Source: Gemmatimonadota bacterium (lineage in GTDB: Bacteria; Gemmatimonadota; Gemmatimonadetes; Gemmatimonadales; Gemmatimonadaceae). From it: a stretch of 62,204 nucleotides of DNA. The notes below the pieces were generated by a model. That model saw only the letters and a list, made by a program, of their open reading frames with translations, was not told the DNA's origin and searched no databases. Made by a program: the position numbers and the translations under genes. Positions 25,574-27,565 of this stretch are shown piece by piece. The DNA is taken from positions 2,877-65,080 of the forward strand of contig JAPLKS010000010.1 of the NCBI GenBank assembly GCA_026387915.1, read 5' to 3'. Each line of letters starts with the position of its first letter. Position 1 is the first letter of the stretch.

Positions 25574-27565
25574 CTACACGTGCTGCAACGTTCGGCGCAC
25601 CGTCGGCTTGGTCCGCACGCTGCGCGAGAGCTCCATCGGGGGCGCTGATGCTGGCTCACGTAGTTCGAAGGTGCTGACCATGTCCTGCAGCGTCCCGGCC
25701 TGACCGGTGAGCTCGGTTGTCGCAGCGGCCGAATCAGACGATGTGCGCGCCGTGGACGCCATGCTCTGATTCACGGTGTCGACCGCGCTGTTGATCTCCG
25801 CTACACCCTCGCTCTGCTGCGCGCTCGCGAGTGCGATTTCTGCAATCACGTCGGTCACGGAATGGACCTTGGTGGTGATGTTCTCAAAGTCCGTGAGCAC
25901 TTGTCGGTTGATGTGCACGCCGGCGTTTGCGTTCGCCACCGACTCCTCAATGAGCTCTGCCGTCTGCTTCGCGGCCTCGGCGCTGCGCACCGCCAGGCTC
26001 CGGACTTCATCCGCCACCACCGCAAAGCCGCGGCCCGCATCACCGGCACGCGCCGCTTCGACGCTCGCGTTGAGAGCCAATAGGTTGGTCTGGAACGCAA
26101 TCTCCTCAATCGTCTTGACCACGCGGGCAGAGGCGTCGGCCGACGTCTTGATGCGATCCATCGCCTCCGAGAGCGAGCGCACGTTCTCCGCGCCGTGTTC
26201 GGCGGCTGCCCTCACGTCACCGGACATCACGCGCGCGTTCGCCGCATGCGCGGTGTTGGCATTTGCCTTCGCGGCCATTGCATGCAGCGCGCCGCCCACC
26301 TTCGTGAGCGAACTGGCCTGCTCGGCGGCGGCGTCCGCGAGCGACAGACTTCCCGTGTGAATCTGACCCGCTGCGGCCGCGACCTGCTGCGAGGCGGATG
26401 ACACCTCGCCGAGTGCCTCGTTGAGATGGAGCGTGGCCGTGTTGAAGGCCTCTTTGATGGTCGCGTACTGCCCCTTGTACTGACCGTCCATGTGCGCGGT
26501 GAGATCGCGCCGCGCAAGCCGCTGGAGTGCACCGGTCGATTCGCTCACCGGCTGACTGACGGCTTCGACCATTTGATTCATGCCGCGCACGAGATCGCGG
26601 AAGGCGCCTTGGAATCGGGCCTCGTCGCCGCGCTTGTTCAGTTCGCCGTCCTTCGCCCAAGTGGCGAGCCGATTGGCTTCGATCGTGAGTTCGCCAATGG
26701 TCCGCTGCAAGTGCATAAACGACTTAGTGAGCACATCTTTCTCGCCGCGCGGCGTGAGCTGCGACGTGACATCGCCGCGGCTCAGCGAGTCCGCGCCACG
26801 CGCAACGCTCCGGATGTATTCGATCATGTCGCGGAATGAATCGGCGAGCAGGCCGAGTTCGTCGTCCGAATGCACTGTCACATCCTGCTCGACATCGCCT
26901 TGGGCAATCAGCGCGGCGGAACGGGTGATGCTCACGAGCGGTCGAGTGATGGTGCGGGTAATGAGGCCGAGTGCGATACCCAGCATCAGCACGACTGCGA
27001 GGCTCACGCCAATGTTCTTGATCTGACTCGTGCGCAGTTCGGCCATCTCAGCGGTGGACCAACGCTCAACCACGAGGTACCCGATCGGTTGGCCGACCGC
27101 GATTTCGTCGTGGCATTCGGCGCAGGCGGCTTCGGCGCGAAAGGGGGTCACGCCTGTGACATACGACTTTGCGTCGGCGGTGTTCGTGAACGACGAAGCG
27201 TCGAGTTTGCTCGTTAGCGCTTGCTGCACGATGGCTTCGGTCGTCTTTTTGTCGTTCATCGTCGAGTCGGATGAACGAAACACCCGGCCCTTTGGCGTCA
27301 CGATGAACGCGCGTTTGAGCCCATTGAGCCGGCCGAGCCGCGTCATCATCGTGTCGACCCCTTCGAGATCGGCTTTCACCATCGCGTGTCGAAGCGTTGC
27401 CTCAACAACCGCGCTGGTTTCCTTGGCCTGATGCTGAAGGGAATCCACCAGCTCCGTTTTGCGTGTTTGCCACTGCCAAGCAGTTTGCGCTGCAAACACC
27501 AGCACGAGCGTGGTGGAGATGGGCACAATGAGCTTGACTGACAAGCTGCGCATTCTACGCGGCAT
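25574..27565 (-). CDS. Methyl-accepting chemotaxis protein with c-type heme motif
   Basis: About 663 residues from ATG 27565 (a GTG at 27610 is also in frame). TM1 is at about 10-30, a periplasmic sensor of roughly 150 residues follows, then TM2 ([18 protein letters not shown]), HAMP segments and the long signalling coiled coil. The tip is unmistakable: [21 protein letters not shown] then [15 protein letters not shown]. In the sensor, 27110-27124 encodes C-A-E-C-H, a c-type heme attachment motif, just before [11 protein letters not shown]. Covalent heme would make this a redox, oxygen or NO chemoreceptor, as described for heme-c MCP sensor domains in Geobacter. No CheR-binding pentapeptide is seen. 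No other chemotaxis genes are in the window. Confidence 0.9.

Follow-up and report, generated by a model that had tools for sequence, protein, structure and literature searches.

A predicted heme-c chemoreceptor with a single-Cache sensor domain in a member of the Gemmatimonadaceae

A gene for a chemoreceptor (MCP) of 663 amino acids with a predicted heme-c site was found on the minus strand at positions 25574..27565 of the window, i.e. the whole stretch of 62,204 nucleotides that was analysed. The gene was delimited by Pfam matches and its open reading frame, and the ATG at 27565, which is preceded by GGGGA, was chosen as the start because the N-terminus of the relatives is conserved; the open reading frame as listed begins 15 codons upstream, at GTG 27610. 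The neighbouring genes that were scanned encode housekeeping functions (an SLT/LysM transglycosylase, MoaC, DNA polymerase III delta-prime, a peptidase S58 and PurK), and the DNA polymerase III delta-prime gene and moaC lie upstream on the same strand.

From Pfam matches and hydropathy the receptor has the order TM1, sensor, TM2, HAMP, HAMP_2, MCPsignal, with all features on the minus strand. The two membrane segments assigned from hydropathy, TM1 (residues 7-30, 27476..27547) and TM2 (residues 182-207, 26945..27022), enclose a periplasmic single-Cache sensor domain that was assigned by homology and modelling (residues 31-180, 27026..27475). The remaining part of the protein comprises a HAMP domain (26810..26965; PF00672, E 1.1e-16), a second HAMP-like domain, HAMP_2 (26432..26617; PF18947, E 8.7e-18), and the MCP signalling hairpin, MCPsignal (25766..26215; PF00015, E 6.2e-41).

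The sensor contains the predicted heme-c attachment motif CAECH at residues 148-152 (27110..27124, minus strand; the residue numbering presumes translation from ATG 27565), in which His152 is the predicted proximal ligand. The original prediction had described a CAECH motif before TM2 in the periplasmic domain of a full MCP, and both the description and the position proved exact. The two cysteines of the motif are the only ones in the 663 residues of the receptor. Based on the residue composition of 14 long open reading frames of the window, about 0.0006 CxxCH motifs would be expected by chance per whole receptor and 0.0001 per sensor. Among the six-frame stop-to-stop stretches longer than 30 amino acids in the window there were only two other CxxCH motifs, in frames 107 and 121 codons long, which we take to be non-coding. 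Given the expectation per receptor and the presence of only these two other motifs, a chance origin of CAECH was rejected.

When all PDB chains were searched with the sensor using phmmer, the top match was GSU0935 of Geobacter (3b42, E 0.0039), and this alignment to a known heme-c MCP domain, which had been proposed together with the original prediction, extends across the CxxCH motifs, which coincide, and includes the distal methionine. Met62 of the receptor (27380..27382, minus strand) aligns with position 26 of the 3b42 chain, which is Met60 in the numbering where His144 is chain position 110. In GSU0935 the distal heme ligand is Met60 and the proximal ligand is His144 (PMC8396549), and Met62 is the predicted distal heme ligand of the receptor. 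The two sensors match each other weakly in sequence (E 0.004 to 0.07), and a profile built from the four close relatives gave no better PDB match (3b42 at E 0.07 versus 0.004 from the single sequence). The nearest Pfam profile was Mcp40H-20_sensor (PF21563; E 1.6e-4), for which the score of 22.4 bits, or 25.2 bits in the genome search, did not reach the curated cut-off of 27 bits. The Tll0287-like profile (PF11845), which matches the same stretch of the sensor, scored 13.7 bits (E 0.09) and was likewise under its curated cut-off of 24.1 bits; the search of the receptor's genome with PF11845 gave no match, and Tll0287 (5b82) was not among the PDB matches listed from the phmmer, profile and Foldseek searches. 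With these scores, we assign the receptor to neither PF21563 nor PF11845, and what we claim is the broader kind, a GSU0935-like heme-c single-Cache chemoreceptor.

The sensor was modelled as a monomer with AlphaFold2 from a five-sequence alignment (mean pLDDT 74, about 80-88 across most of the sensor). In the model a long N-terminal helix ends by the predicted ligand Met and is followed by a helix and strands, and a short helix over the CxxCH motif sits between strands 130-139 and 156-165. The model thus has a single-Cache fold whose CxxCH helix lies between two of the late strands, in agreement with the published description of sCache_heme, in which strands 3 and 4 of the Cache fold flank the inserted helix that bears the motif (PMC12889525). 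The Foldseek matches of the model are Cache sensors (WalK, CitA and DctB), and alignment with VIA-align gave Z 16.7 for WalK (rmsd 2.2, 137 residues aligned) and Z 14.7 for CitA (rmsd 2.9, 128 residues aligned). Among the matches listed with E <1e-3, 3b42_B (E 1e-4) had the highest sequence identity, 21%, together with a high rmsd, which we suppose reflects helix swapping in the crystallised dimer.

Close relatives of the sensor were found in 4/179 genomes of the same family, the receptor's own genome included, and none was found in 395 further genomes sampled from the phylum; a scan of named genomes gave four relatives only. The CxxCH motif is kept in all three family relatives (CLECH, CLECH and CLQCH), and a distant receptor from Marinimicrobia (L033) has CLECH at the same place, so that the motif, whose loss in close homologues had been named as a refutation of the heme reading, is present in every homologue found. 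Eleven sensor domains were aligned, namely the window receptor, its three relatives, the Marinimicrobia receptor, GSU0935, the three units of a tri-heme protein and two histidine kinases. No more than four columns, those of a Met, two Cys and a His, are the same in all eleven domains. The alignment is partly low in similarity, with the third-unit and kinase rows least certain, and the set was chosen partly by CxxCH, meaning that the Cys and His were selected for and the Met was not.

The tri-heme protein in this set is encoded in the receptor's genome (G000) on the plus strand of contig 15 (L072:7665-9050) and has 462 amino acids, with membrane segments at both ends, no output domain and three predicted heme-c Cache-like units in tandem that carry the motifs CEGCH, CLGCH and CEKCH, each unit with an upstream Met aligned with the distal ligand. 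PF21563 matches two of the three units. A 97% identical protein is present in another genome (G037), and otherwise the 395 phylum genomes gave one marginal partial match; the word 'tandem' does not occur in the text of the sCache_heme preprint (PMC12889525). Histidine kinases of other Gemmatimonadota (L036 in G307 and L037 in G261) carry in their single periplasmic domain a pair of CxxCH motifs spaced by about 37-43 residues, which suggests two-heme sensors.

The assembly (3.58 Mb in 23 contigs, rated 100% complete) was searched for the machinery that such a receptor would need. On contig 14 a complete locus of the ccmABCEFGH type was found, with genes for a CcmA-like ABC protein, CcmB, a CcmC-like protein, CcmE, CcmF, a CcmG-like protein and CcmH in a row, and the absence of a heme-attachment system was thereby rejected. 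The genome has nine MCP loci; seven were read completely, and of these the window receptor alone contains a CxxCH motif. An operon on contig 18 encodes CheA, CheW, CheR, CheD, a CheY-like receiver, CheX and CheB, a second chemosensory cluster is located on contig 13 and FliG is also encoded, so that a genome without chemotaxis was likewise rejected. The statement in the original prediction that no che genes are near is thus right for the adjacent genes scanned, and the searches that it called for located complete ccm and che genes elsewhere in the genome. The genome thus offers the means both for attaching heme and for passing on a signal, although at a distance from the receptor gene. In the contig 13 cluster (L022, G000) CheA, CheB and CheW are mixed with TPR, Roadblock and DUF4388 proteins, and this cluster perhaps serves a non-flagellar output.

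Given the ccm locus, the retention of the motif in homologues and the alignment to GSU0935 with its distal Met, the proposed heme-c reading is well supported, and from its sequence the protein is almost certainly a heme-c chemoreceptor. Alternatively, the CxxCH could be a vestige, or could bind a metal or form a disulfide, in a domain whose ligand is a small organic molecule, as in other Cache domains; this would fit the closeness of the fold to CitA and WalK and the scores of the heme-Cache families under the cut-off. This explanation is scarcely credible given that the domain diverges except at the His, the two Cys and the distal Met, which do not vary, and that Ccm is present in the genome. 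Within the heme-c chemoreceptors, the receptor is predicted to belong on the Met-type side and not on the Cys-ligated stand-alone side, since the Met is present and there is no further cysteine.

For heme occupancy, ligation, signal and output direction we infer the following course of events. One c-type heme would be attached by the Ccm system of the genome at Cys148/Cys151 of the periplasmic single-Cache domain, with His152 as proximal ligand and with Met62 on the distal side as a ligand that can be exchanged. If the periplasmic electron-transfer environment oxidises the heme, or if a ligand displaces Met62, the helix that bears Met62 would loosen, and the resulting strain would be relayed by TM2 and the HAMP units as far as the MCP hairpin, set the activity of CheA and in this way affect flagellar swimming. 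The physiological signal would be how oxidised or reduced the periplasmic respiratory or extracellular electron-transfer chain is (energy taxis), and NO may also be able to bind the heme site.

The original prediction had called the ligand (O2, NO or redox) unknown, which stands for the receptor itself; published work on the family narrows the choice to NO and the redox state of the heme, as opposed to O2 (PMC8396549, PMC12889525). In GSU0582/0935 reduction puts Met60 on the iron and oxidation frees it, and CO and NO likewise displace Met60 (PMC8396549). The receptor probably senses redox conditions or nitric oxide, and we lean towards redox as its main signal based on three observations. First, the orthologue in one genome (G126) lies directly downstream of genes for a DmsE-family decaheme cytochrome and an MtrB/PioB barrel (L032:572-3948, contig 68). 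Second, the receptor's own genome has a similar pair of decaheme cytochrome and MtrB/PioB genes on contig 9. Third, no Cu nitrite reductase (NirK) above the cut-off was found in the receptor's genome or in the three other carriers, in which there were sub-threshold matches only. The case for redox is circumstantial and consists of one synteny case, given that the MtrAB linkage was seen in G126 only, that the neighbours differ in another carrier (G127) and that those in the window are housekeeping genes. The pair on contig 9 of G000 is on the minus strand (L078:1411-5357), where genes for a tetraheme cytochrome, the MtrB/PioB barrel and the decaheme cytochrome are adjoined by a cytochrome b gene, and these genes likely form an extracellular electron-transfer module. 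It is conceivable, though we regard it as unlikely, that the receptor is the chemotactic arm of MtrAB-type extracellular electron transfer in Gemmatimonadota, which would read the redox state of the periplasmic/outer-membrane cytochrome pool and direct swimming towards usable external electron acceptors.

The main rival to a redox signal is NO, which would bind the ferrous heme, displace Met62 and break or weaken the proximal bond, leading to repellent or attractant taxis. NO is bound by GSU0582/0935 in both redox states (PMC8396549), a HAMP-linked sCache_heme protein of Pseudomonas azotoformans binds NO tightly, is slow to let it go and does not form a stable complex with O2 (PMC12889525), and the same 2026 preprint views sCache_heme members fused to signalling modules as NO sensors. 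NO as the physiological signal is possible but not what we expect, given the lack of NirK matches above the cut-off in the four carriers and that the sole orthologue with an informative neighbourhood adjoins electron-transfer genes and not NO genes; NO from outside the cell may still be a source. A third heme-copper oxidase in the receptor's genome was not assigned as an NO reductase. The other two oxidases are, by sequence, of the aa3 and cbb3 types and indicate that O2 matters to the cell, which, together with the case of DcrA, a heme-c receptor of Desulfovibrio that was linked to redox and O2 (PMC8396549), would be compatible with direct sensing of O2 or CO by the heme (aerotaxis). Direct sensing is nevertheless quite improbable, as a stable O2 complex is absent in the characterised sCache_heme proteins (PMC12889525), and an effect of O2 through oxidation of the heme would count as a reading of redox, the signal preferred here.

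These findings extend heme-c chemoreceptors to the Gemmatimonadaceae, where they are rare, and the receptor is a further example of the known Geobacter-type heme-c chemoreceptors that is rare in its phylum. They also suggest one Met plus CxxCH as a simple residue signature that would set the Met-ligated sensory branch apart from the stand-alone proteins with Cys ligation, and since one orthologue has MtrAB genes as neighbours, a connection of taxis with extracellular electron transfer can be put to the test.

Among known systems, the Mcp40H-20_sensor family (PF21563) is likewise a sensor of MCPs, from which the receptor differs by its score of 22.4 bits against the cut-off of 27. With sCache_heme (DUF3365/Tll0287-like, PF11845; PMC12889525) it shares a Cache fold that accommodates a CxxCH helix between late strands and, as in 'Cluster 2' of that work, the fusion of the sensor to a signalling module, whereas it has Met and not Cys at the distal position and scores 13.7 versus 24.1 bits. 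Compared with GSU0935/GSU0582 of Geobacter sulfurreducens (PDB 3b42, 3b47), the receptor is about 20% identical, has the extra HAMP_2 unit, comes from a Gemmatimonadaceae host and has a heme that is predicted, but it has the same order of TM1, heme-c Cache sensor, TM2, HAMP and MCP, a CxxCH close to the C-terminal end of the sensor and, compared with GSU0935 only, a distal Met at the aligned place.
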